Of a stretch of 44,877 nt of DNA, positions 122-44,877 are shown piece by piece; positions within the stretch are counted from its first letter, which is position 1; every line of letters begins with the position of its first letter. Both the position numbers and the translations under genes were made by a program. The stretch is from a virus. The notes beneath the pieces were generated by a model that was not told where the DNA came from, did not search any database, and saw only the letters and a program-made list of their open reading frames with translations. The stretch covers positions 1-44,877 of IMG/VR virus record IMGVR_UViG_3300036853_000096; one strand, given 5' to 3'.

Positions 122-1018
122 CGCATGCTTCCGACCGGCGAAGGCACGACGGAAAACCAGACGCAGGAAGGCAACGAAGAGTCGCTGACCCGCTACTACG
201 ACGAGATGCTGATCAACGAGCTCGGACATGCGCACCGTGTGCGCAACGAGGGCACGATCGACCGGCAGCGCGTTCCCTACGACATGCGCGAGGAGTGCTA
301 TCAGTCCCTCAAGGACTGGGCCGCCGACCGCATCGATACGTGGTTTTTCAACCAGCTCGCCGGCAACGTCGCCCAGTCCAACACGAAATACACCGGGTTC
401 AATGCGACCATCGCGCCGTCATCGACCCGCATCTTTCGTGGCGCGGCCTCGGCCGACGACCAGACGATGACGACCACCACCTACCGCTTGACGCTGAGCC
501 TGATCGACAACTGCGTCAACCGTGCCAAGACAACCTCGCCGATGATCCGCCCCATCAAGGGGCTTGGCAAGGACATCGACTATGTCATGTTCATCCACCC
601 GGACCAGACGCTGTCGCTGCGGGCAGATACCGCAACGGCCGGCAACTGGTTCGACCTGCAGGGCAAGCGTCTGCAGGGCGGCGAGCGGGACAGCAACAAC
701 CTCTACACCGGCATGCTCGGTATCTACAACCGCACGCTGATCGTGGAGAACACCCGCGTTCCGCAAGGCCTGAACTCCACCTCTTCGGTGGCGGTCAGCA
801 ACACCCGTCGCGCGATCTTCTGTGGCGCGCAGGCGGCTGCCTGGGCCTACGGCAAGGGCGGCGGCAAGAGCAAGTACACGTGGAAGGAACAGCTCTTCGA
901 CTACGACCGGGAGCTGGGCGTCCGCACAAGCTGGATCGGTGGCGTGAAGAAGTCGGTCTACAATTCCGTGGATTACGGAACGATCGTCGTCTCCACCTAC
1001 GCCGCGCCGGCCTCTTAA
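1..1018 (+). CDS. Major capsid protein, N4-gp56 family (3' part)
   Basis: This is the C-terminal part of the coat protein whose start codon lies at 44695, at the other end of the window. Across the junction the gene is 1,080 nt and encodes 359 aa. The N-terminus (MATHTIGVNDALAVKLWS) and the following DVEALKET and RIRWGIRMLPTGEG stretches are typical of the N4-gp56/DUF4043 coat family as I recall it, and the length fits. It follows the portal and scaffold genes, the usual place for a coat gene. The product assembles the icosahedral head on the scaffold. The gene appears split only because of where the circle was opened. Confidence 0.9.
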   Translation, partial: DVEALKETVAYEYMGEDAGSLCQIMTDAQKKAGDRIRWGIRMLPTGEGTTENQTQEGNEESLTRYYDEMLINELGHAHRVRNEGTIDRQRVPYDMREECYQSLKDWAADRIDTWFFNQLAGNVAQSNTKYTGFNATIAPSSTRIFRGAASADDQTMTTTTYRLTLSLIDNCVNRAKTTSPMIRPIKGLGKDIDYVMFIHPDQTLSLRADTATAGNWFDLQGKRLQGGERDSNNLYTGMLGIYNRTLIVENTRVPQGLNSTSSVAVSNTRRAIFCGAQAAAWAYGKGGGKSKYTWKEQLFDYDRELGVRTSWIGGVKKSVYNSVDYGTIVVSTYAAPAS

Positions 1019-1031
1019 GGGAGTAACGGAC

Positions 1032-1448
1032 ATGGCAACTGGAACACTCGCCACTACCGCCCGTCAGGCCCATGTGCAGCAGGTTGGTTACTGCCGCTTC
1101 GTGGTCAACTACAACGACCCGGGCATTTCGGTCGGCGTCGGCAAGCAGTATCTGCCTGCCGGTGCCATCATCATCGGCACCGACGTGCTGGTGACGGCCT
1201 CGTTCAACGCGAACTCGACCAACGTCCTGACCGTGGGTGTCAACGGCACTACGGCCAACAACATCGTTGGCTCGGCGGACGTGAATGAGGCGTCGGTGCA
1301 GATTTTTCAGAATATCTCTGCATCGGCGACTCTTCCGCTCACCGCTGACACGCAGGTTTACGCGAAGTTCGCGCAGACCGGCGCCACGGCGGCCACGAGC
1401 GGCAAGGCGTACGTCATCATCAAGTACATTCCCGACAACGATCTCTGA
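1032..1448 (+). CDS. Small virion protein, possible head decoration protein
   Basis: The 138-aa product starts 14 nt after the coat gene, behind a GGAG-like site (AAGGGAGTAACGGAC). It is rich in Thr, Ala, Val and Gly, with alternating hydrophobic residues that suggest beta structure, and it has no signal peptide or membrane segment. A gene of this size directly after the coat gene is often a decoration or head-stabilising protein, but I recognise no family. A stem-loop lies shortly after its stop codon, so it may be expressed together with coat protein at high level. Confidence 0.55.
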   Translation: MATGTLATTARQAHVQQVGYCRFVVNYNDPGISVGVGKQYLPAGAIIIGTDVLVTASFNANSTNVLTVGVNGTTANNIVGSADVNEASVQIFQNISASATLPLTADTQVYAKFAQTGATAATSGKAYVIIKYIPDNDL

Positions 1449-1476
1449 TGTCGGCAAAGCCCAACAAACGGGCAAA

Positions 1477-1510
1477 GGGACGGCGCCTCGGTGCCGTCCC
1501 CATTTCTTCA
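1477..1510 (+). terminator. Stem-loop after the coat/decoration pair (terminator or attenuator)
   Basis: GGGACGGC (1477-1484) pairs with GCCGTCCC (1493-1500). One wobble and one further pair extend the stem to 10 bp around a four-base loop. The downstream tract (CATTTCTTC) is only weakly T-rich, so it may terminate partially or protect the 3' end of the coat mRNA. It argues against starting the next gene at 1448, because such a gene would be translated through the stem. Confidence 0.55.
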
Positions 1511-1519
1511 GGAGAGCGA

Positions 1520-3184
1520 ATGAAGCTGACGGTGAACATCGCCACTCGCGGCCGTCCTGAACAGTTGCGCGCCACGCTGGAGCGCACACTTCCCAACATG
1601 GTGCGCGACGATACCGTGCTGCTGGTGGCGATCGATGACGACGACGCCGAGACCATTGCGGCGATCGACACGTTTCCGATCGATCCGCGACTGAAATATT
1701 CCGTAAAACCGCGTGAGGACACGCGCGGTCCCAAGCATGACCGGTGCCTTACCGAGGCGCCCGCCGATGTCTATCTCGTCGGCCACGATTGCGCCCCGTT
1801 CATCACTCCCGGCTTCGACCAGATGGTGGTGGATGCCGCGGCTCGATTCCCCGATGGGATCGGCTGTGTTTACGGCCAGATGGCGAACGCTTCGTTCCCG
1901 CAATTCCAGGCTCCGACTGCCAAAATGGTCGAGCTGATGGGCTACATCTACCCTGGACATTTTCCATTCTGGTTCATCGATCACTGGCTGGACGATCTCG
2001 CCCGTATGATCGGGCGCTTTTGGGTGGTTCCGGTCGAGATGGACCACCAGGCGACCCGCCCGCAAAAGACGATCGGGCTCAATGACCTCGTCTTCTGGTG
2101 CAACTTCTATGACGCCCTGGCGGTCGAGCGCCGGCAGGTAGCCGAGCGCATCCTCAAGGAGATGCAGGAGCCGGCATGGCGCAAGAAGATGCTGCGCGAC
2201 GGCTGGGATTCGATCGATTACCGCTCGCGCTGGGTGAACAACACCGTTCGCGTCAATGCGGAGGCCCTCGAGGCAGATCGGGGCGGCAGCCCGCGCGATG
2301 CCCGCTATGGCCGGGCCAAGCTGGCGGCTCGCCAACACCTTTGGAACATCAAGAAGAGAGGTCGCATGAAAGTCGGACTGTGCATTCCCTGCTACGAGGC
2401 CAAGGTCAGTGATTCAACCATGTCCTCGGTCGCCCGTACGATGGTGCTGGCAGCCGAACAGGACATCGAAATCATGCTCATCGTCGGCCGCGGCAATCCG
2501 GTCCTGCCCGATGTCCGCAACTGGTGCGTTGCGCAGGCTCTCGCGCTCGGCTGCGACAAGGTATGGTTCGTCGACTCTGATATCGCATGGGATGCGAGCG
2601 TTCCGCAGGTGTTGAACATGCTTCGCGCGCCGGTGGACATCGTCGCGGCGGTTCATCAGGCCCGGAATGTGCGGTGGAACGATCCTGCCCGGATGGTGGT
2701 CTACTGGGACAAGATTCCGCCCGAGCTCGAGCCGAAATCAGGCCTCTATAAGGTCAAGAAGGTGGCGACCGCCTTCGTGTGCATCGATCGGTCGGTGTTC
2801 GAACGGCTGGCGGAAGCGGGGATTGCCAGGAATTATCTGCCCAGCCAGGTGGTGGCGGAGGGTGACTATTACCCGTATCTCCGCAACTATTTCTGGTACG
2901 ATTTCATGCCGGTCAGCGAAGAGTTTCCGGAGAACCTGAAGGAGTATCTCGCCGGTGTAGGCTATGAGGGCGAGCTTCAAAAAATCCAGGGCGAGGACTA
3001 TTATTTCTGCACAAAAGCGCGTGAGATCGGCTGCGACATCGTCATCGATCCGCGCATCTCGCTCGTCCACTTCGACGGCTGCATCGCGCACGACATGAGC
3101 ATGGCGGACGTGCGGTTCCAGCCGGTCGACAAGGTGAACGACAATCCCGAAGAAATGCCGCCAATGGCTGAGGCTGCCGAGTGA
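1520..3184 (+). CDS. Tandem glycosyltransferase-like protein (two GT-A domains)
   Basis: The 554-aa product starts at the ATG at 1520, behind AGGAGAG. The first half looks like a family-2-type GT-A glycosyltransferase: a TVNIATRGRPEQLRATL opening, then AIDDDD at about residue 40 and YLVGHDC at about 95. A second GT-A-like unit begins at residue 283 (MKVGLCIPCYEAKVSDSTM) and contains a DxD-type motif in VWFVDSDIAWD. The internal ATG at 2366 has its own purine-rich ribosome-binding site (AAGAAGAGAGGT), which suggests a fusion of two genes or an alternative start. Such enzymes transfer sugars from activated donors; here the target could be a virion protein, phage DNA or the host surface. The target is inference. 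Confidence 0.65.
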   Translation: MKLTVNIATRGRPEQLRATLERTLPNMVRDDTVLLVAIDDDDAETIAAIDTFPIDPRLKYSVKPREDTRGPKHDRCLTEAPADVYLVGHDCAPFITPGFDQMVVDAAARFPDGIGCVYGQMANASFPQFQAPTAKMVELMGYIYPGHFPFWFIDHWLDDLARMIGRFWVVPVEMDHQATRPQKTIGLNDLVFWCNFYDALAVERRQVAERILKEMQEPAWRKKMLRDGWDSIDYRSRWVNNTVRVNAEALEADRGGSPRDARYGRAKLAARQHLWNIKKRGRMKVGLCIPCYEAKVSDSTMSSVARTMVLAAEQDIEIMLIVGRGNPVLPDVRNWCVAQALALGCDKVWFVDSDIAWDASVPQVLNMLRAPVDIVAAVHQARNVRWNDPARMVVYWDKIPPELEPKSGLYKVKKVATAFVCIDRSVFERLAEAGIARNYLPSQVVAEGDYYPYLRNYFWYDFMPVSEEFPENLKEYLAGVGYEGELQKIQGEDYYFCTKAREIGCDIVIDPRISLVHFDGCIAHDMSMADVRFQPVDKVNDNPEEMPPMAEAAE

Positions 3185-3426
3185 TGCTTGGCCGGCTTAA
3201 ACGGAATGGCTTCACCGAGGCTACCCGGGTAGGGAGGGTCATCGGTGGTCCGGATAAGGGAAAGACCATCGTGCGCGCCCTGGATCCTGCCCATGGTTGG
3301 GCGTACGAGAAGATCGACGAGACTGACGAGGCGGCCAGTGACGCGGCCGTGGATGCGTGGGCGGCGCGGGTCGGCGAGCCGGTGATCAATCCTCGGAATC
3401 TTCGCATCGGGGTGGTGAAGCCATGA
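3184..3426 (+). CDS. Hypothetical protein, 80 aa
   Basis: It overlaps the stop of the glycosyltransferase gene in a TGATG junction and ends overlapping the next start by 4 bp, so it is translationally coupled in the head operon. The product (MLGRLKRNGFTEATRVGRVI) is soluble and mixed-charge, with the segment GGPDKGKTIVRALDPAHGWAYEKIDETDEA. I recognise no family. A GTG at 3181 is an alternative start. Confidence 0.55.
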   Translation: MLGRLKRNGFTEATRVGRVIGGPDKGKTIVRALDPAHGWAYEKIDETDEAASDAAVDAWAARVGEPVINPRNLRIGVVKP

Positions 3427-15725: not shown

Positions 15726-16454
15726 ATGTCTGCTACGGAAACCTTCCGCGCGAAGGCTCCATGGATCATGGCGCTTTTGATGCGTGATTTCGATCTCGAC
15801 GTGGTCGGCGCCGCCGCCATATGCGGCAATTTGGGGCACGAGAGCGGCGGACTCGCTTCGCTGCAGGAATTGAACCCGACCGTCAAGAACTCCAAGGGCG
15901 GCTATGGCTGGGCCCAGTGGACCGGGCCGCGCCGCCGCGACTTCTTCGCCTACTGCGATCGCAACCACCTCAATCCGTCGAGCGATGAGGCCAATTACAA
16001 ATGGCTCTTCCTCGACCTGTCGGGCGATTACAAATCATCCATCGTCGCAGTGAAGCGCGCACCGGATCTCTATGCCAAGGTCGAGGCGTTCGAGAAGACT
16101 TTCGAGCGCGCCGGCATCAAGCACTACGAGAGCCGCAATGCGTGGGCCGACCAGGCGCTCACCGCCTACCGGGACGCCAACGGGCACATCATACTGCCCT
16201 CGTGGGCGTTCGCCGGCACGCATCCGCCCATTCCGTCCACCCGGCCTCCAGCGCCCGCCCAGGAGGCCGACAAGCCCAACGTGGTGCTGGTCGAGGGGAC
16301 GAAGCCTGACGAAACCCAGGTCGTCATCGTCAAGACGCCGCAGAACCCGCCGGCCAGTCATCCGCTGCCGAGCAATGCGGCGGGGTTCGCTGCGTTCGGA
16401 GCGATGATCATCGCGCTTGGCTACGGCGCCCTCAAATGGCTTGGAGTAATGTGA
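15726..16454 (+). CDS. Endolysin, phage tail lysozyme family, with C-terminal membrane anchor
   Basis: The 242-aa product has AAICGNLGHESGGLASLQEL near the N-terminus, with Glu39 as the probable catalytic residue, then GGYGWAQWTGPRRRDFFAYC, the core of the Phage_lysozyme2 (PF18013) muramidase family. After a Pro-rich linker (residues about 165-215) comes one hydrophobic segment, residues about 219-239 (GFAAFGAMIIALGYGALKWL). There is no N-terminal signal. A single C-terminal anchor on a lysis muramidase is unusual: SAR endolysins carry theirs at the N-terminus. It heads the lysis cassette and its stop overlaps the holin start. Confidence 0.75.
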   Translation: MSATETFRAKAPWIMALLMRDFDLDVVGAAAICGNLGHESGGLASLQELNPTVKNSKGGYGWAQWTGPRRRDFFAYCDRNHLNPSSDEANYKWLFLDLSGDYKSSIVAVKRAPDLYAKVEAFEKTFERAGIKHYESRNAWADQALTAYRDANGHIILPSWAFAGTHPPIPSTRPPAPAQEADKPNVVLVEGTKPDETQVVIVKTPQNPPASHPLPSNAAGFAAFGAMIIALGYGALKWLGVM

Positions 16455-16684
16455 TGACGACGACGGTCAACCAGCCCTCTGCCAATCCGACCAACAAGCT
16501 GTCGGCCGCAACCGTGGCCGCGGCGCTCATGGGCGTCGTCGGGCTCGCGCTCAAGAACCTCGCGCCGCAATGGTACGATCAGGACGTGCTGCTCGGGTTG
16601 CTGCCGGTTGTGGTCTATTTCGCCGGCTGGTTCATCAGCGATGCTCCCAATATTACAGTCGTCACGACGGACCCCAAGCCGTGA
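16454..16684 (+). CDS. Putative holin, two membrane segments
   Basis: The 76-aa product starts in a GTGATG overlap with the endolysin gene. A polar N-terminus (MTTTVNQPSANPTNKL) is followed by membrane segments at about residues 18-37 and 45-64 and a short tail ending TTDPKP. Size, topology and position directly after the endolysin fit a class II-type holin, which makes holes in the inner membrane. No family name can be given from sequence alone. Confidence 0.6.
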   Translation: MTTTVNQPSANPTNKLSAATVAAALMGVVGLALKNLAPQWYDQDVLLGLLPVVVYFAGWFISDAPNITVVTTDPKP

Positions 16685-16893
16685 CGCGCCGGATGCGCCC
16701 TCCTCTTCCCGGAGAGCGGTTTATAGATGTGCATCCCAAAATCACCCTGTCGGCGGAGGTGTGGAAAAAGCTCACTCGTCATGCCCACCGCCGTGACATG
16801 AGCGAAGGCAAATTGATGGCCCTGATCATTCAGACTGTCCTCAACGACGAGCTCGTCAACGCCGTCATCGACGACATAGAGGCCACGTCATGA
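16681..16893 (+). CDS. Small ribbon-helix-helix-like protein in the lysis cassette
   Basis: About 70 aa from the GTG at 16681, or 66 aa from the ATG at 16693. The segment PKITLSAEVWKKLTRHAHRR, then MSEGKLMALIIQTVLND, resembles the strand-helix-helix of RHH/CopG DNA-binding proteins. It lies between the holin candidate and the Rz-like gene and overlaps both by 4 bp. A DNA-binding protein here is unexpected. It could autoregulate the cassette, or the resemblance may be superficial. Confidence 0.5.
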   Translation: MTRRMRPPLPGERFIDVHPKITLSAEVWKKLTRHAHRRDMSEGKLMALIIQTVLNDELVNAVIDDIEATS

Positions 16894-17123
16894 CCGCGCT
16901 GCTTTCCGGGATCTGGCCTTACATCCTCATAGCCGGTGCAGCGATCGGTGCGGCGTGGGCGGCGCTGGCGAGCGCTCGACGGACTGGCCGGCAGGAGCAG
17001 GCAGCCAAGCAAGCAGAGGCTGACAAGCGCGCTGCGGACACCGCGCACCGGATCGATACCGAAGTCGACGCGATGAAGCCTGGGAATGCTCGAGAGGAAC
17101 TGAAGAAATGGTCGCGCGACTAG
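16890..17123 (+). CDS. Rz-like inner-membrane spanin
   Basis: The 77-aa product has one N-terminal membrane segment (residues about 7-27, IWPYILIAGAAIGAAWAAL) followed by a charged, helical periplasmic part (QEQAAKQAEADKRAADTAHR) typical of i-spanins. The Rz1-like lipoprotein gene starts inside its 3' end in another frame. Spanin pairs fuse inner and outer membranes in the last step of lysis of Gram-negative hosts. It is shorter than lambda Rz but similar to other compact spanins. Confidence 0.75.
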   Translation: MTALLSGIWPYILIAGAAIGAAWAALASARRTGRQEQAAKQAEADKRAADTAHRIDTEVDAMKPGNAREELKKWSRD

Positions 17124-17305
17124 CCCTGCTCTGCCTGCTGCTCGCCGGCTGCGCAACCACCACCGGCGGCGACTTTTGTCAGGTCGAGCACCCGATACGG
17201 CCGACCAGGGCGACGATCAACGCCATGAGCGATTCGGAAATCAGGGATGCGCTCGCCCATAATCTCAAGGGCGTCAAGCTCTGCGGGTGGAAGACGAATG
17301 GCTGA
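17108..17305 (+). CDS. Rz1-like outer-membrane lipoprotein spanin
   Basis: The 65-aa product starts MVARLALLCLLLAGCATTT, with a clear lipobox (LLAGC), so Cys15 would become the lipidated N-terminus after signal peptidase II cleavage. It overlaps the Rz-like gene by 16 bp in a different frame, the classic overlapping Rz/Rz1 arrangement. The mature protein contains two further Cys residues (DFCQVEH and KLCGWK), which could form a disulfide. Confidence 0.8.
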   Translation: MVARLALLCLLLAGCATTTGGDFCQVEHPIRPTRATINAMSDSEIRDALAHNLKGVKLCGWKTNG

Positions 17306-35600: not shown

Positions 35601-36932
35601 GTGATTCCGCTTACGATCGAAACAGCCCGCGTCTTTCTGCCGCTCCTGACGCCAGCTCGCGATAAGGGAGCCTGGGGCGGCCGCGGCAGCGGCAAGTCGC
35701 ATTTCTTCGCAGGATTGATGGTCGAGGACGCCGTTCGCTTTCCAGGCGAGGCCGGCGAGGGGCTGCGGGCCATCTGCGGCCGTGAAATCCAGAAGAGCCT
35801 GAAGGACTCGGCCAAGCATCTAATCGAAGCCAAGCTGGCGGAATGCCGTCTGGGCGAGGCGGACGGTTTTCGCGTCTTCGAGAAACAGCTCGAGACGCCC
35901 GGCGACGGGCTGATCGTCTTCCAGGGCCTGCAGGACCACACCACGGACTCGATCAAGTCGTTTGAAGGCTTCCATCGGTTCTGGGGTGAGGAAGCGCATA
36001 GCATCAGGCAGCGCTCGCTCAACCTCATCCGCCCGACAATCCGATGGGAGAACAAGCGGCTCGGCCTCTCGTCGGAATTGTGGTGGAGCTGGAACCCGCT
36101 GCGCAAGAACGATCCGGTCGACGTGATGCTGAGAGGCGACAGCCAGCCGACCAATGCGGTCGTGGTGCATGCCAACTGGTCGGACAATCCGTGGTTTCCC
36201 GACGTGCTCGAGCAGGAGCGCCAGGACTGCCTGCGGGTGACGCCCGACCAGTACGATCACATCTGGGAAGGCGGCTATGCCTCGGTGCTGGCCGGCGCCT
36301 ACTACGCGCAGAGCCTGGCACAGGCGAAGCTGGAGAAGCGGATTACGCGCGTTGCCTTCGATCCGCTCATGCGCGTGCGCATCTTCTGCGATCTCGGCGG
36401 GACTGGGGCCAAAGCTGACGCCTTCGCAATGTGGCCGGCGCAGTTCGTTGGTCGTGAGATCAGGACGCGGGATTATTACGAGGCTGTAGGGCAGCCGCTC
36501 GCAACGCATCTGGGCTGGCTGCACGAGCATGGCTATTCGCCGGCCCGAGCCGACATTTACCTACCGCACGATGGCGTAAAGCATGATGGCGTCTACGACG
36601 TGACGTTCGAGAGCGCATTTAGTCAGGCCGGGTATGACGTGACGGTCATTCAGAATCAGGGGGCAGGTGCGGCCAAGATGCGTGTGGAAGCGGCCCGCCG
36701 GCTATTCCCGAGCATCTGGTTCGACGAAGAGACGACTGACGCCGGTCGGGCTGCCCTCGGCTGGTATCACGAGAACATCGACGAAAAGCGCAACGTTGGG
36801 CTTGGCCCGCTTCATGACTGGTCGTCGAACGGCGCTGATGCCTTTGGCCTGATGTGCGTTGCGTACGAGGCACCGAAGGTGAAGCGCAGCAGCAGCCCGC
36901 CGCCTCGCCGCGGCAGTTCGATGGCCGCTTAA
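35601..36932 (+). CDS. terL: Terminase large subunit
   Basis: The 443-aa product starts at a GTG. The ATPase has Walker A GGRGSGKS at residues 26-33 and a Walker B-like FHRFWGEEAH, with Glu as the catalytic residue. The nuclease half has DLGGTGAKADAFAMWP and later acidic positions (HDWSSNGADAFGL) in the order of P22/Sf6-type TerL nucleases (Terminase_3/6). It cuts concatemers and pumps DNA through the portal. The last 20 residues are Ser/Pro/Arg-rich. Confidence 0.92.
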   Translation: MIPLTIETARVFLPLLTPARDKGAWGGRGSGKSHFFAGLMVEDAVRFPGEAGEGLRAICGREIQKSLKDSAKHLIEAKLAECRLGEADGFRVFEKQLETPGDGLIVFQGLQDHTTDSIKSFEGFHRFWGEEAHSIRQRSLNLIRPTIRWENKRLGLSSELWWSWNPLRKNDPVDVMLRGDSQPTNAVVVHANWSDNPWFPDVLEQERQDCLRVTPDQYDHIWEGGYASVLAGAYYAQSLAQAKLEKRITRVAFDPLMRVRIFCDLGGTGAKADAFAMWPAQFVGREIRTRDYYEAVGQPLATHLGWLHEHGYSPARADIYLPHDGVKHDGVYDVTFESAFSQAGYDVTVIQNQGAGAAKMRVEAARRLFPSIWFDEETTDAGRAALGWYHENIDEKRNVGLGPLHDWSSNGADAFGLMCVAYEAPKVKRSSSPPPRRGSSMAA

Positions 36933-36954: not shown

Positions 36955-37344
36955 ATGACGATTGGCGCAAGTGGCGACACTGTTGGCTATGACGCCGGTA
37001 ACGGGCGTTATCAGACTGCTGCTTTGGTCGTTTCCGTCGACCGCAGCGGTAATCCTACAGGCGCAGCTCCGCTCGGCGCCGGCACCGATCGTTCGGGCTC
37101 GATCACGCTCGGCGGCACGGCGCAGGTGCTCGCGGCTGCCAACACATCGCGGCTTACACTCGTCGGGCAGAACATAGATCCCGCTGAGGATATGTGGATC
37201 AACGAAGTCGGCGGCACGGCGACGGCCAACACGGCCGGCTCGACGCTGGTTCCGGCAAAAGCAACGTTTTCGATTGATACCACCCGCGCAATCAGCATCG
37301 TGGCGGCGACGACCGGCCACAAGTTCACGGCGGTCGAACTCTGA
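36955..37344 (+). CDS. Small beta-rich virion protein
   Basis: The 129-aa product (MTIGASGDTVGYDAGNGRYQ) is Gly/Thr/Ala-rich, with SGSITLGGTAQVLAAANTSR and a run of alternating hydrophobic residues. It looks like a small structural protein that decorates heads or tails. It follows TerL and overlaps the propeller-like gene in TGATG. I do not recognise a named family. Confidence 0.5.
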   Translation: MTIGASGDTVGYDAGNGRYQTAALVVSVDRSGNPTGAAPLGAGTDRSGSITLGGTAQVLAAANTSRLTLVGQNIDPAEDMWINEVGGTATANTAGSTLVPAKATFSIDTTRAISIVAATTGHKFTAVEL

Positions 37345-38930
37345 TGCGGGTCAATTCGCCAAGACCGAGGCCGGGCGGCGGGCACGCCTCGCTGCTGTGG
37401 ACGCCGCAGTACGACATCGACACGTACGGCGGCCTATGGTGGGACTACCGCGACATCGTCGACGGCACGGTCTCGGCCTGGGTGTCGCGCTGCGGCAAGG
37501 GGCAGCAGGCGCTGCTCACTGGCGCCGGCCCGACCAAGGACGTGAATGGCGTCGCATTCAACGGCACTACGCAGGCGCTTTCCCGATCGACGGCAACCAA
37601 CGCAGCAGTGCATCTGCGGTCGAACACGGTCCCTGACAGCACCTATGGCATGTCGTCGGACGGAGCTGGAAAAGGCTTCACCTGCACCGGGCTCACGCGC
37701 GTAAACGGCAGCGACATATACTGGCTGGGCAACCATGGAGACGCGAGCGCCGCGCATGACGGTAGCGGTGCATGGGATCCATCACTGATCAAGGTTCGCC
37801 GCGATCCGGTAACAGGCGCATTGACCAAGATCGGAGAGATCAGGGTAAAGCCTCTCCTCGGCGCCAGTGTCCAATCGATCCAGGACGTGACGTTCGACAG
37901 TTCCGACAATACGCTTTGGTTTGCTGTCGCAACCGGCTCTCTCTTGGGCGTTTATCACGTCACGCAGGACGGCGTGCTCCTGTCGGACACGATCACGGCG
38001 AGTTGGGCGCCGAATGGCTTGGCCTATGATCCTCGCGACGACGGGATTTTCATCAATCGCGAGTCGAGCTCCGGAAACGGATTGGAGAAGCGCTCCTGCG
38101 CGACCGGCGCAGTCACGATGGCGTCGATCAATCCGTCCGTGACGGCTGCGGATCAGCTCAGTTTCGACAGCACCACGCACGAACTGTTGCTTAGCTACGG
38201 CACCAATTCTCCGCCCGGCAGCGTCCAGGTTTATGACGCCGAGACGCCTACGACGCTGGTATTGGCGGGAAACATACAGTTGCCGGCGCAGTGCAATGCG
38301 ACAGAGGGCATTTACCGCGAAGGCGACCGGATCATCAACCTCAACGACGACTGGTATCACCCGGCTGGCTCTTTGCTTAACCAGAGCGTCGAAGTCCGCT
38401 GCTGCCCGCCGCTGCCGAAGATCGTATCCGTCCACATGACGGCTCTCGTCTCGGCGACGACCGGCACCGACTGCCTGATTGAGTTCGGGGCACCGCTCGG
38501 CGGCTCCGGCAATGGCTGGGGCATCTATCCGACCTCGACAACCGCGCTCAACCTGATCGTCAACACCGGAGCGAGCGGCACAGGCCAGCAGTCGACCGTC
38601 TCGAGCGGCGCCATCTCGGCGCTCACCTCCATGCGGCTGATCGATGTCGTCTTCAACATGAGCGCCAAGTCGGCATCGCTGCGGATTGATGGGACAGCCG
38701 TTACCACGGGCATTCTGACGAACTGCATCGGGAGCCTGACCCTGGCGCAGATCATGCGGCTGGGCACATCAGCCGATAGCCGGTTCGCGTCCTGCGTGCT
38801 CAAGGATGTGATTATCGTGGCCGGCGCTTCTGACGTTCAGCGGATGGAAGGCTGGCGCGCATGGCAGCATGGCCTCACGGGGCAGTTGCCGGCCAACCAT
38901 CCATACAAGAACGCCGCGCCGACGCCGTAA
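37344..38930 (+). CDS. Beta-propeller / lectin-like surface protein
   Basis: Residues about 100-330 of this 528-aa protein read like blades of a propeller: IQDVTFDSSDNTLWFAVATG, GVYHVTQDGVLLSDTI, GLAYDPRDDGIFINRE. Residues about 350-510 look like a concanavalin-type jelly roll, and the C-terminus (EGWRAWQHGLTGQLPANHPY) is one I know from phage proteins with LamG-like domains. It is probably exposed on the virion and may bind a cell-surface glycan. No signal peptide. It lies between TerL and portal, an unusual place for a receptor-binding protein. Confidence 0.6.
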   Translation: MRVNSPRPRPGGGHASLLWTPQYDIDTYGGLWWDYRDIVDGTVSAWVSRCGKGQQALLTGAGPTKDVNGVAFNGTTQALSRSTATNAAVHLRSNTVPDSTYGMSSDGAGKGFTCTGLTRVNGSDIYWLGNHGDASAAHDGSGAWDPSLIKVRRDPVTGALTKIGEIRVKPLLGASVQSIQDVTFDSSDNTLWFAVATGSLLGVYHVTQDGVLLSDTITASWAPNGLAYDPRDDGIFINRESSSGNGLEKRSCATGAVTMASINPSVTAADQLSFDSTTHELLLSYGTNSPPGSVQVYDAETPTTLVLAGNIQLPAQCNATEGIYREGDRIINLNDDWYHPAGSLLNQSVEVRCCPPLPKIVSVHMTALVSATTGTDCLIEFGAPLGGSGNGWGIYPTSTTALNLIVNTGASGTGQQSTVSSGAISALTSMRLIDVVFNMSAKSASLRIDGTAVTTGILTNCIGSLTLAQIMRLGTSADSRFASCVLKDVIIVAGASDVQRMEGWRAWQHGLTGQLPANHPYKNAAPTP

Positions 38931-38939
38931 GGAGCCGAG

Positions 38940-39329
38940 ATGCAAGTCTTTATGAGCCAGGCGGCAAAGCAGGAAATCGTCCTGTTTCAGCTTCTCACGG
39001 CGAACATGAACATCACGACGGACCAGTCATTCGTGAAGTTGCTGGGCTTCACGAATTACCTGATCACGCGCATCAGGGCGGCCAACTCGTCGGGCAGCCT
39101 GACAACGGCGGCCGGCGGCATTTACACGGCTGCCACAAAGGGCGGCAACGCGCTTGTGGCCGCGGCGCAGGCCTACTCCACGCTGACGGGTTCGACCATC
39201 GGCCTTGACCTTACGCTGGCCGCTGTCGGCGCCGGCGTGCAGACGGTTACGCCGATCCTGTCGCTTACGACCGGCCAGGGCTCGGCGATGACGTGCGATA
39301 TGTACATCATCGGGGTGCCGCTGACGTGA
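38940..39329 (+). CDS. Small structural protein, 129 aa
   Basis: The product (MQVFMSQAAKQEIVLFQLLT) is Ala/Thr/Gly-rich with TNYLITRIRAANSSGSLTTA and a C-terminal beta region ending YIIGVPLT. It resembles in composition the product at 36955 and the one at 1032, so these may be related decoration-type proteins. Its stop overlaps the GTG start of the glycanase gene. Confidence 0.5.
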   Translation: MQVFMSQAAKQEIVLFQLLTANMNITTDQSFVKLLGFTNYLITRIRAANSSGSLTTAAGGIYTAATKGGNALVAAAQAYSTLTGSTIGLDLTLAAVGAGVQTVTPILSLTTGQGSAMTCDMYIIGVPLT

Positions 39330-40573
39330 AGCGCCTGATTTCCCTTGCGTTCCTGCTGATAACCGGCGTTGCGCGCGCCGGAACGGCCGAAGATATATTG
39401 ACCTTGATGGATCAGCAGATGAAGGACGCAGCCGGCAAGGTGGCGACCTCGCGGGCCTATATCGCGCAGGAAAGCACAGCTATCGCCGCGCTCAACGCTC
39501 AGATTCTCTCTGGTCAGACGGCACTCGCTGCCTCTCAGGCCGCGCTTACAACCGCACAGGCGCAGCTTGCCGCAGTGCAAGCCGATTTCGATGCCTACAA
39601 GGCGATGATCCTTCAAAAGTTCGGCCCGCTTGGCTTGGTCGACTGGCAGAAGACCGAGTATCGAGGCTATCCGCTTGACCTGACCGGATTCACCGAGGCG
39701 TTCAGCAGCGATTTCAGCGACCTTTCGCAGATCAGCGGGCCGACCGGCGTCGGTCCCTGGTACTCGAGCGTGCACAGCGGTTTCGGTGGCGCTGGCTTCG
39801 TGCCGATCGGCGGGGCCAACGATCCTTACTCGATCGTCAACGGAGCGTTGCAGATACGCGTTTCGCATGTCGGCACAGTCACCAACGCCGGCTGGTACGG
39901 CGGCATCATCCAGACGATGAAAGCCGATGGCACCGGCTTCGCGCTCGGTCTCGATGCAGAACCGGGCGTCAGCACTGCGCATCAGGCGATCGCTTTCGAG
40001 GCGAGGATAAAGCTGCCACCGGCCGATCCGGCGTATGTGCCATGCTGTGGTGGACCGCTGATGTATACAGCCGGCAGTCCAGCGCACGGCCATTGGGGCT
40101 CGTTCTGGCTGCTCAGCGCCGCCGACTTCCACAGCGAGATCACCGACTTCCTGATCGAGCAGGACGTGATCGAGAGCTACGGCGACGACAAGGGCGACCA
40201 CTCGACGGTTCATATCAAGTCGCGAAAGGTGCCGCAGGCCGGCGACTATCTGTATCCGACTGGCGGCTGGCGTGCCAGCAAAGCGCTCTACACCGACCCG
40301 CAGACGGTCAAGAATACAGTAGGCGGCGCGCAGACCTTCCCGGCCGGCGTCACGCTTGGGGACGGGCAGTTCCACACCTACACCCAGGTGATGGACGATC
40401 AGTGGATCACGGAATACATTGACGGGCTCTCGATCGGCCGCTTTCCAATGCTGCCTGAGTTCCGCACGCCGCTCTACATGCTCGTCAACCACACGACCTA
40501 CGCCGACAAGGTGTCGTCGATCCCGGCGCAACTCGACATGCAGGTCGACTATGTGAAGGCGTACGCGCGATGA
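39326..40573 (+). CDS. GH16-like glycanase with signal peptide (putative depolymerase)
   Basis: The 415-aa product starts at GTG. Residues 1-18 (MKRLISLAFLLITGVARA) form a signal peptide, followed by a coiled coil (about 40-100: LAASQAALTTAQAQLAAVQA). The main domain has HWGSFWLLS, then FLIEQDVIESYG with E278-x-D280-x-x-E283, the ExDxxE catalytic motif of GH16 glycoside hydrolases, and QFHTYTQVMDDQWITEYIDG, the usual GH16 strand pair. GH16 enzymes cut beta-glucans and related polymers such as rhizobial succinoglycan. The export signal suggests a secreted enzyme as well as, or instead of, a virion part. Confidence 0.75.
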   Translation: MKRLISLAFLLITGVARAGTAEDILTLMDQQMKDAAGKVATSRAYIAQESTAIAALNAQILSGQTALAASQAALTTAQAQLAAVQADFDAYKAMILQKFGPLGLVDWQKTEYRGYPLDLTGFTEAFSSDFSDLSQISGPTGVGPWYSSVHSGFGGAGFVPIGGANDPYSIVNGALQIRVSHVGTVTNAGWYGGIIQTMKADGTGFALGLDAEPGVSTAHQAIAFEARIKLPPADPAYVPCCGGPLMYTAGSPAHGHWGSFWLLSAADFHSEITDFLIEQDVIESYGDDKGDHSTVHIKSRKVPQAGDYLYPTGGWRASKALYTDPQTVKNTVGGAQTFPAGVTLGDGQFHTYTQVMDDQWITEYIDGLSIGRFPMLPEFRTPLYMLVNHTTYADKVSSIPAQLDMQVDYVKAYAR

Positions 40574-40592: not shown

Positions 40593-42596
40593 ATGGCCGG
40601 TAATTATCAACGCGGAGAGCAGGACGCCGCATCGGGCGCCGATCCGGAGCTATTGAAATATCAGCAGTGGTTTCGTCCCGACCTCGTCAAAGCCCAGAAA
40701 TGGCGCAAGGAGGCGAAGGAGGATTTCAAGTTCCGCGACGGCGATCAGTGGTCGGATGACGACAAGCGCGTCCTCGAGGAACAGGGCCGCTATCCCTTCA
40801 CGTTCAACCGAACCGGCGTGCTGGTCGACGCCGTGGTCGGCGCCGAAAGCTCCAATCGCCGTGAGGTGCGCTACATCCCACGCGAGACCGGCGACAGTTT
40901 GCCCAACGAGCTGCTGACCTCGGCTGCCGAATGGTTCCGTGACCAATGCAACGCCGAGGACGAGGAATCGACCGCCTTCAAGGATGTCGTTACTTCGGGC
41001 ATGGGCTGGACGGAAACCAGGCTCGACAGGACGAACAACCCGGCCGGCGACCCGAAGATCGAGCAGATCAGCCCGTTCGAGATGGTTTGGCATTGCGATG
41101 CGATGAAGCCGAACCTGACGGATGCCAAGCGGCTCTGGCGCGTTCGCAAGGTCGATACCGAGGAAGCCGAAAAGCAGTTCCCCGGCTTTGAGCCGAGCGA
41201 ACTCAATGCTGCATGGGCAGATGAGGACAGCACGGACGCCGAGGCGACCGTGAACGATCCGACGGCCCGCTACACGGTCGACGGGAAGGACCGGAAGCCG
41301 AAGAAGGTGACGATCGTCGCCTGCCAGTACGTGGAAGAGGAGACCTACTACAAGACGGCGATGCTTCAGCCCGGCATGATGCAGCCGACCGTGGTCGACC
41401 TGGACGAGAAGAAGCACAAGATCGCCCAGAAGGCCGGCGTCGTGCTGCAGTCCGCCAAGATGAAGCGCGAGACCGTCATGCAGTGCATCCTCGGCTCGAA
41501 GGTGCTGGTAAAGCCGACGCCGACGCAGACTGGCGGTTTTTCGTGGATCTGCATGACCGGCCTGAAGGACAACGACAACGGCATCTTCTATGGCATCGTG
41601 CGGCGTGCAAAAGACCCGCAGCGCTGGGCCAACAAGTGGCTATCGCAGATTGTCCATATCCTGAATTCGCAGGCCAAGGGCGGCGTCATGATGGAGCGCG
41701 GCGCCGCTGAAGATGACCGCGAATTCGAAGCGAGCTGGGCTCGCTCTGATCGTATTTCCTACTTGGAAAAGGGCACACTTTCCAACCCGAACGGGGCGAA
41801 GATCCAGCCCAAACCAGTGGCTCAGTTCCCGGCCGGATTCGATCGGCTGCTGCAGTACGCCGATGACATGATCATCAAGGCGACCGGCATCAACATGGAA
41901 CTCCTGGGGATGAGGGAGGTCAACCAGCCCGGCGTGCTGGAGTATCAGCGCAAGCAGTCGGGCATGGGCATTCTCGCCAGCTTCTTCGACAGCCTGAAGC
42001 GCTATCGCAAGATCCAGGGCAAGGGCATGCTGAGGCTGATCCAGGATTATCTGTCGGACGGCCGCATGGTGCGCATTGTCGGGCAGGATCGCGCCCAGTA
42101 CGTGCCGCTGACCAAGCCAGAAAACGCCGACATCGAGTACGACATCATCGTCGACGACGCGCCGACCAGCCCGAACGAGAAGGAGCGGACGTTCCAGCTT
42201 CTCACCAACCTGCTGCCGATGTTCAAGGATGCGATCGGGCCGCAGGAAATCGCGCTCATCGCCGAATATTCGCCGCTTCCGGCATCGTTCGTCGAGAAGC
42301 TGAAGCAGGGTATGGCCCAGAAGGCCGCACAGCCGCCACAGCCTGATCCGGCCGTGCAGGCGCAGATGCAGACCGAGGCGCTGAAGCAGCAGTCGGAGCA
42401 GGCCAAATATCAGGTGGAAATGGAGAAAATCCAGCTCCAGCGCGAGGAGATGGCGCAACAGCAGCAGCAGAACGTGCACGATTATCAAATGGCGCTCGTT
42501 CAGCAGGAGATTGAGAAGATCAAGGCCAGCGCGGCGATTGCACAGGCCACGAGGCCGCAGCCGATCTCGCCACCGTCCAGCTCGAGGATGAATTGA
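40593..42596 (+). CDS. Portal protein (P22-like)
   Basis: The 667-aa product matches P22-type portals: AKEDFKFRDGDQWSDDDKRV at the N-terminus, PFTFNRTGVLVDAVVGAESS, and IEQISPFEMVWHCDAMKPNL in the wing/stem region. RADYMI-type LLQYADDMIIKATGINMELL precedes the crown. The last 110 residues are Gln/Glu-rich coiled coil, like the long barrel helix of P22 portal. It forms the dodecameric DNA channel at one head vertex. It follows the surface-protein block and precedes scaffold and coat genes. Confidence 0.9.
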   Translation: MAGNYQRGEQDAASGADPELLKYQQWFRPDLVKAQKWRKEAKEDFKFRDGDQWSDDDKRVLEEQGRYPFTFNRTGVLVDAVVGAESSNRREVRYIPRETGDSLPNELLTSAAEWFRDQCNAEDEESTAFKDVVTSGMGWTETRLDRTNNPAGDPKIEQISPFEMVWHCDAMKPNLTDAKRLWRVRKVDTEEAEKQFPGFEPSELNAAWADEDSTDAEATVNDPTARYTVDGKDRKPKKVTIVACQYVEEETYYKTAMLQPGMMQPTVVDLDEKKHKIAQKAGVVLQSAKMKRETVMQCILGSKVLVKPTPTQTGGFSWICMTGLKDNDNGIFYGIVRRAKDPQRWANKWLSQIVHILNSQAKGGVMMERGAAEDDREFEASWARSDRISYLEKGTLSNPNGAKIQPKPVAQFPAGFDRLLQYADDMIIKATGINMELLGMREVNQPGVLEYQRKQSGMGILASFFDSLKRYRKIQGKGMLRLIQDYLSDGRMVRIVGQDRAQYVPLTKPENADIEYDIIVDDAPTSPNEKERTFQLLTNLLPMFKDAIGPQEIALIAEYSPLPASFVEKLKQGMAQKAAQPPQPDPAVQAQMQTEALKQQSEQAKYQVEMEKIQLQREEMAQQQQQNVHDYQMALVQQEIEKIKASAAIAQATRPQPISPPSSSRMN

Positions 42597-44694: not shown

Positions 44695-44877
44695 ATGGCT
44701 ACCCACACCATTGGCGTCAATGACGCCTTGGCGGTGAAGCTCTGGTCCTCGCGCATGGACGTCGAGGCGCTGAAGGAAACAGTCGCCTACGAGTACATGG
44801 GTGAGGACGCAGGCTCTCTCTGCCAGATCATGACCGATGCCCAGAAGAAGGCGGGCGACCGCATTCGCTGGGGCATC
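44695..44877 (+). CDS. Major capsid protein, N4-gp56 family (5' part)
   Basis: This is the start of the coat gene, which continues at position 1 across the circular junction. The ATG at 44695 has an AAAGGAC ribosome-binding site. The first 61 codons end inside the repeated 121 bp. The opening residues (MATHTIGVNDALAVKLWSSR) are missing from the other end of the window, so the full 359-aa protein is seen only by joining the two parts. Confidence 0.9.
   Translation, partial: MATHTIGVNDALAVKLWSSRMDVEALKETVAYEYMGEDAGSLCQIMTDAQKKAGDRIRWGI
44757..44877. repeat. Terminal direct repeat, copy 2 (circular genome overlap)
   Basis: Identical to bases 1-121. It begins at codon 21-22 of the coat gene. 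Confidence 0.95.

Follow-up and report, generated by a model that had tools for sequence, protein, structure and literature searches.

The window analysed here, the whole 44,877-base stretch of DNA, contains a gene for a GH16 protein between its genes for the terminase large subunit (TerL) and the P22-type portal protein, with a predicted Sec signal peptide and a long helix preceding the enzyme domain (Table 1). The length of the window is that of virus record IMGVR_UViG_3300036853_000096, and an exact terminal direct repeat of 121 bases (1-121 and 44757-44877) makes it probable that this record is a complete circular genome. The gene content (integrase, repressor, P22-type portal, terminase, major head protein and lysozyme) is that of a temperate podophage. 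Its portal has relatives in Rhizobium phage RHph_Y1_10, Paracoccus phage KLEP18-1, the Microcystis-labelled record Mae-JY35 and one Methylobacterium prophage, and the host call is therefore limited to an alphaproteobacterium, the probable host. The lysis set, which comprises endolysin, holin-like and both spanin-like genes, is complete and located away from the GH16 gene. Directly 3' of the head genes, a 578-aa protein (1448-3184) with a glycosyltransferase-like N-terminal match (phrog_14945, 7e-5) could serve to modify host or virion sugars.

Table 1. Features of the window and GH16 genes with predicted export signals in other phages; positions refer to the sequence named in the first column.
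Sequence	Feature	Position	Strand	Basis or context
Window	lysozyme-type endolysin gene	15726-16454		lysis cassette (15726-17305)
Window	holin-like gene	16436-16684		lysis cassette
Window	i-spanin-like gene	16890-17123		lysis cassette
Window	o-spanin-like lipoprotein gene	17108-17305		overlaps i-spanin-like gene; passes signal-peptide rule
Window	terminase large subunit (TerL), upstream	35601-36932	+	Pfam Terminase_3 5e-18
Window	129-aa protein, phrog_22789, first gene in TerL-portal insert	36955-37344	+	PHROG 1e-22
Window	528-aa protein, probable virion appendage	37344-38930	+	blastp 5e-8 to 716-aa protein of L126
Window	129-aa gene, stop overlapping GH16 start	38940-39329	+	
Window	GH16 gene, 415 aa	39326-40573	+	GTG 39326 to TGA 40573; start overlaps upstream stop
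Window	Sec signal peptide, residues 1-18, predicted signal peptidase I cut between ARA and G	39326-39379	+	own rule; N-terminal hydrophobicity
Window	long helix, residues 21-102, probable coiled-coil stalk	39386-39631	+	AlphaFold2 model; a/d heptad content
Window	GH16 jelly-roll domain, residues 115-415	39668-40570	+	tblastn 1e-9; VIA-align Z 24.9
Window	catalytic motif E278-Q-D280-V-I-E283	40157-40174	+	invariant in 38 sequences
Window	P22-type portal protein, downstream	40593-42596	+	Pfam P22_portal 6e-122
L018	signal-GH16	2085-3269		between TerL and portal of unrelated uncultured phage; relatives in L266, L131
L266	signal-GH16			after TerL and portal
L131	signal-GH16, 62% relative of L266			among structural-looking genes
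L156	signal, coiled-coil-like heptads and GH16 (EMDPLE)	630-1568		upstream of baseplate wedge and tail fibre genes
L255	signal-GH16			among probable structural genes
L164	lipoprotein GH16			adjoins endolysin

Four genes (36955-40573), the last of which is the GH16 gene, separate TerL and portal in the window. The two are adjacent in RHph_Y1_10, Mae-JY35 and L002; two short genes lie between them in KLEP18-1, and a methyltransferase gene plus small genes in ctDrO704. Within the insert of the window, the C-terminal 100 residues of the 528-aa protein show similarity to a LamG-like protein encoded by the related Methylobacterium prophage (L126; blastp 5e-8). A previous sequence-only reading of the window had given the GH16 gene its correct ends and frame and had rightly placed it in the packaging operon. 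The overlap of its GTG start with the preceding stop codon fits translational coupling. Starts at M28 or M32, with which the signal would be lost, are disfavoured: neither has an evident ribosome site, and they would leave a gap of at least 77 nt after a gene that otherwise overlaps.

Membership of the protein in GH16 is well supported by the agreement of sequence, predicted fold and an invariant catalytic triad. Pfam and PHROGs did not recognise the 415-aa product, PF00722 being below threshold for it and above threshold for its relatives, and NCBIfam gave a weak match to the endo-1,3-1,4-beta-glycanase EglC (1.2e-6). With tblastn, the GH16 domain matched over its whole length annotated GH16 proteins on Rhizobium plasmids (1e-9). 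Residues E278, D280 and E283, which the sequence-only reading had numbered correctly as the ExDxxE motif, align with the EIDVIE of relatives, and when loss of the motif in close homologues was looked for, the triad proved invariant across 38 aligned sequences. In an AlphaFold2 model (mean pLDDT 78.9) for which 34 window and locus sequences were used, the C-terminal jelly roll matches laminarinases both by Foldseek (E 1.6e-14) and by VIA-align (Z 23-25; best 24.9 to 6jh5, 215 residues at 2.6 A). A family profile search matched 59 solved sequences, the top ones being GH16 enzymes (best 6e-34). The nearest solved enzymes cut beta-1,3-glucan and share only about 20% identity with the window protein, whose domain most likely hydrolyses a beta-linked glucan or an exopolysaccharide (EPS).

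The protein begins with MKRLISLAFLLITGVARA, followed by GTAED. This N-terminus comprises a basic n-region, a short hydrophobic core (h-region) and an A-x-A cleavage site (ARA) without a lipobox, i.e. all the features expected of a substrate of Sec and signal peptidase I according to our own rule, which together with inspection was used here instead of SignalP. Its hydrophobic 12-mer ranks highest among the N-termini of the 42 phage genes, and the rule picks out just 7 of the 1,764 open start codons in the window, the GH16 start included, and 0.2% of composition shuffles. The Sec signal noted in the sequence-only reading was thereby upheld, and we infer that the protein is exported via Sec and cleaved by signal peptidase I after residue 18. 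In the model, the signal helix is followed by an unbroken helix of 82 residues (21-102, pLDDT about 80) and then by the jelly roll. This helix, for which a coiled coil had already been claimed, is probably a coiled-coil stalk and may oligomerise the enzyme. Searches with the whole protein against annotated phages, IMG/VR and GTDB contigs, and with the N-terminal 115 residues against annotated phages and IMG/VR, returned no match, and the signal-helix part is thus without detectable relatives in these collections. Matches to the tail-needle protein gp26 (E 0.016) and to a tape-measure protein reflect coiled-coil composition and are not evidence of homology. A spanin-like role, which might be read from an N-terminal hydrophobic segment plus a coil, is ruled out by the i-spanin/o-spanin-like pair at 16890-17305 and by the intact C-terminal enzyme.

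GH16 domains with an export signal recur in other phages. When IMG/VR was scanned with two general GH16 alignments, 93 distinct GH16 frames were obtained, 86 of them with an intact 5' end. A signal-like start, called by the same kind of rule, is present in 12 of the 93, including one 5'-cut frame and a few low-confidence cases. Gene contexts were assigned by eye and with PHROGs on contigs that are short and in some cases may hold host DNA. Judged by gene content, the signal-GH16 arrangement occurs in about four phage lineages, represented by the window, by L018/L266/L131, by L156 and by L255. In L156, an uncultured phage of contractile-tail type, the order of signal, coil and GH16 domain is the same as in the window protein. 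Other viral GH16 domains (L010, L011, L017, L101) sit inside larger virion-type or tail proteins, of which L010, L011 and L101 have no signal at their start.

Signals were also seen on other genes in relatives of the window phage. The Methylobacterium prophage encodes a tail-fibre-like protein of 569 aa with a Sec-like signal at its start (L126:3506-5215, minus strand) and carries a second, small signal-bearing gene (L126 381-899, minus strand). A gene at the end of the late region of Mae-JY35, which among annotated phages is the closest relative, specifies a 252-aa protein with a Sec signal (L128:22373-23131) that, judged by eye, looks like a trypsin-like serine protease; this candidate exported protease would fit an enzyme-exporting habit in this phage group.

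In a maximum-likelihood tree, the window domain is located inside a nine-row clade with support of 100/97. Membership in this clade is all that is taken from the tree, as the window sequence sits on a long end branch (1.9) that leaves its exact sister uncertain. Its other rows are Asticcacaulis enzymes whose N-termini are Tat/lipoprotein-like or Sec-like (L099, L100, L020), a protein of Caulobacteraceae that has a membrane segment (L019), a lipoprotein-like Parvibaculum enzyme (L021) whose gene lies in an apparent glycosyltransferase/EPS cluster, the domains of two uncultured phages (L010, L011) and the tail protein of an Asticcacaulis prophage (L101; PHROG tail N-terminus 2e-29). In the latter (L101:2665-5499, minus strand) the GH16 domain is C-terminal, and the Tat/lipoprotein-type paralogues L099 and L100 are encoded in the same genome. 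Grouping of the window domain with the EglC clade was rejected (p-AU 0.0003); EglC, a close paralogue 79% identical to annotated ExsH, was used for the ExsH test in a tree that does not include ExoK. Grouping with the phiM12-type phage beta-glucanases (phrog_17064), here the proteins of phiN3, phiM9 and RHph_X3_15, was likewise rejected (p-AU 0.001), and the window protein matched no PHROG. A grouping with L010 and L011 was not rejected (p-AU 0.52).

The derivation from ExsH-type enzymes considered in the sequence-only reading is thus not supported, whereas the broader notion of a host-derived gene stands as plausible. Of the 51 relatives counted as bacterial, among them the viral contig L018, 48 have an export-like hydrophobic segment ahead of the domain, which makes the capture of an exported bacterial enzyme together with its signal plausible, although no relative of the intervening helix was detected. 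Traffic between bacteria and phages appears to have been repeated within the nine-row clade, and its direction can be read either way.

We favour, with a probability of roughly 0.58, the interpretation that the window gene encodes a Sec-exported phage exoenzyme which most likely is free, presumably absent from virions, and degrades EPS or beta-glucan around the lysed cell. The enzyme would be made late in infection along with the packaging genes, exported by the infected cell to the periplasm via Sec, and relieved of residues 1-18 by signal peptidase. Lysis, or export by the host across the outer membrane, would then free it to cut exopolysaccharide or beta-linked glucan surrounding the lysed cell and neighbouring cells, which might help the progeny to escape and adsorb. 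In a Gram-negative (diderm) host, Sec delivers proteins to the periplasm and does not by itself cross the outer membrane. Release at lysis is therefore simpler and likelier than secretion before lysis. The earlier proposal that the enzyme leaves infected cells before lysis to strip their neighbours is not implied by a Sec signal, and the lysis genes present would release the enzyme.

A point against the exoenzyme interpretation is the position of the gene amid structural genes, the expected place of virion proteins. This position speaks for the main rival, which we regard as unlikely: that the protein is a virion depolymerase, a tail appendage which is oligomerised by the helix and docked on the particle by its N-terminal hydrophobic stretch, with the signal-like appearance being incidental or tolerated. 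Related GH16 domains in L010, L011, L017 and L101 indeed belong to virion-type proteins. Moreover, a signal may not exclude use in the virion because the tail-fibre-like protein of the related Methylobacterium prophage bears one that is Sec-like; to presume that phage structural genes lack signals, as the sequence-only reading had called normal for virion depolymerases, is too strong. However, the signal is absent in L010, L011 and L101 and present in the window protein, L018, L156, L266, L131 and L255. In addition, Pfam, PHROGs and NCBIfam gave no match to an N-terminal module for virion binding in the window protein, whose N-terminus consists of signal and helix.

The destination of Sec is also compatible with an enzyme that remains a periplasmic helper, acting on periplasmic glucans or nascent exopolysaccharide during infection, for example by easing lysis or virion exit, and whose release is incidental. 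We consider this improbable. The lipoprotein GH16 gene of L164 does adjoin an endolysin gene, and long helices after a signal are also known from periplasmic stalk proteins, but the window gene lies outside the complete lysis cassette, and several bacterial relatives occur in EPS or glycan-degradation settings. Even a temperate phage with integrase and repressor seems very unlikely to use the enzyme for lysogenic conversion or carbon acquisition, in which the prophage-expressed protein would remodel host EPS or digest environmental beta-glucan to the benefit of the living host. Bacterial GH16 enzymes fill such roles, and GH16 occurs among the auxiliary genes of mangrove soil viruses (PMC6460857); yet the window gene forms part of the packaging/structural operon, with overlapping ends, and is not set apart as a moron unit, and expression in the lysogen is therefore not expected.

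Returning to the Sec-exported free exoenzyme, it is tempting to extend this interpretation beyond the window. We tentatively propose, at odds that we judge a little short of even, that several unrelated phage lineages independently placed a Sec-exported, matrix-degrading GH16 enzyme in their structural operon, the free enzyme released by the infected cell being a shared good for the progeny. Such delivery would differ from that of tailspike depolymerases and has no name as yet, and members of the same clade would serve elsewhere as virion domains. The open-access papers searched yielded no description of an exported phage GH16 enzyme or of a recurrent signal-GH16 gene inside a structural operon. 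To our knowledge, nearly all work on phage depolymerases treats them as virion parts. According to our analysis, some phages may have the infected cell send out an enzyme that dissolves slime rather than carry it on the particle. If such an exported class is real, particle proteomics misses part of the phage arsenal, halo formation and loss of biofilm can stem from a released public good, and enzymes of a single catalytic clade switch between being mounted on the particle and being shipped out. This switch could be compared in paired proteins, i.e. the window protein, L156 and L018 versus L010, L011 and L101.

GH16 enzymes as such are already known in phages, for example in those of Sinorhizobium. 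The beta-glucanases of the Sinorhizobium and Rhizobium phages phiN3, phiM9, RHph_X3_15 and RHph_X2_24 are, like the window protein, phage-encoded GH16 proteins of about 400 aa; they differ from it by the absence of a signal, a Calx-beta-like N-terminus and affiliation with another clade. Tailspike or virion depolymerases with a GH16 domain (L010, L011, L017, L101), three of which (L010, L011 and L101) share the clade of the window protein, are fused to virion-type modules and lack a signal, whereas the window protein stands alone and has one. The jelly roll with ExDxxE is common to laminarinase-type endo-beta-glucanases (6jh5, 4crq, 2vy0, 3azx), from which the window protein is set apart by being phage-encoded, by its long N-terminal helix, by inserts at about 205-255 and 300-345, and by an identity of about 20%. 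The exported enzymes of Caulobacteraceae, Parvibaculum and Rhizobium (L099, L100, L020, L021, L003) have the GH16 group, an intact triad and an export signal in common with it; they are, however, without the 82-residue helix and are encoded by chromosomal or plasmid genes, some of them in EPS or glycan-degradation loci. ExsH and EglC of S. meliloti are GH16 enzymes that act outside the cell, as proposed here for the window protein, but are of RTX type without an N-terminal signal and belong to a separate clade; ExsH leaves the cell by the PrsDE type I system (PMC1403797).

With respect to delivery, phage GH32 enzymes are without a signal (PMC4595243). Lys44, the endolysin of phage fOg44, has a typical signal peptide and is exported via Sec (PMC6116005), yet unlike the window protein it cuts peptidoglycan, serves lysis and acts in a Gram-positive host. 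WceF of Pantoea, a bacterial EPS glycanase with a tailspike beta-helix fold that is exported by Tat (PMC7949094), represents a kind of enzyme common to phages and bacteria and is likewise exported by means of a signal; it may be regarded as the mirror image of the window case. Measured against these systems, the catalytic part of the window protein is ordinary, and it is the delivery that is unusual.
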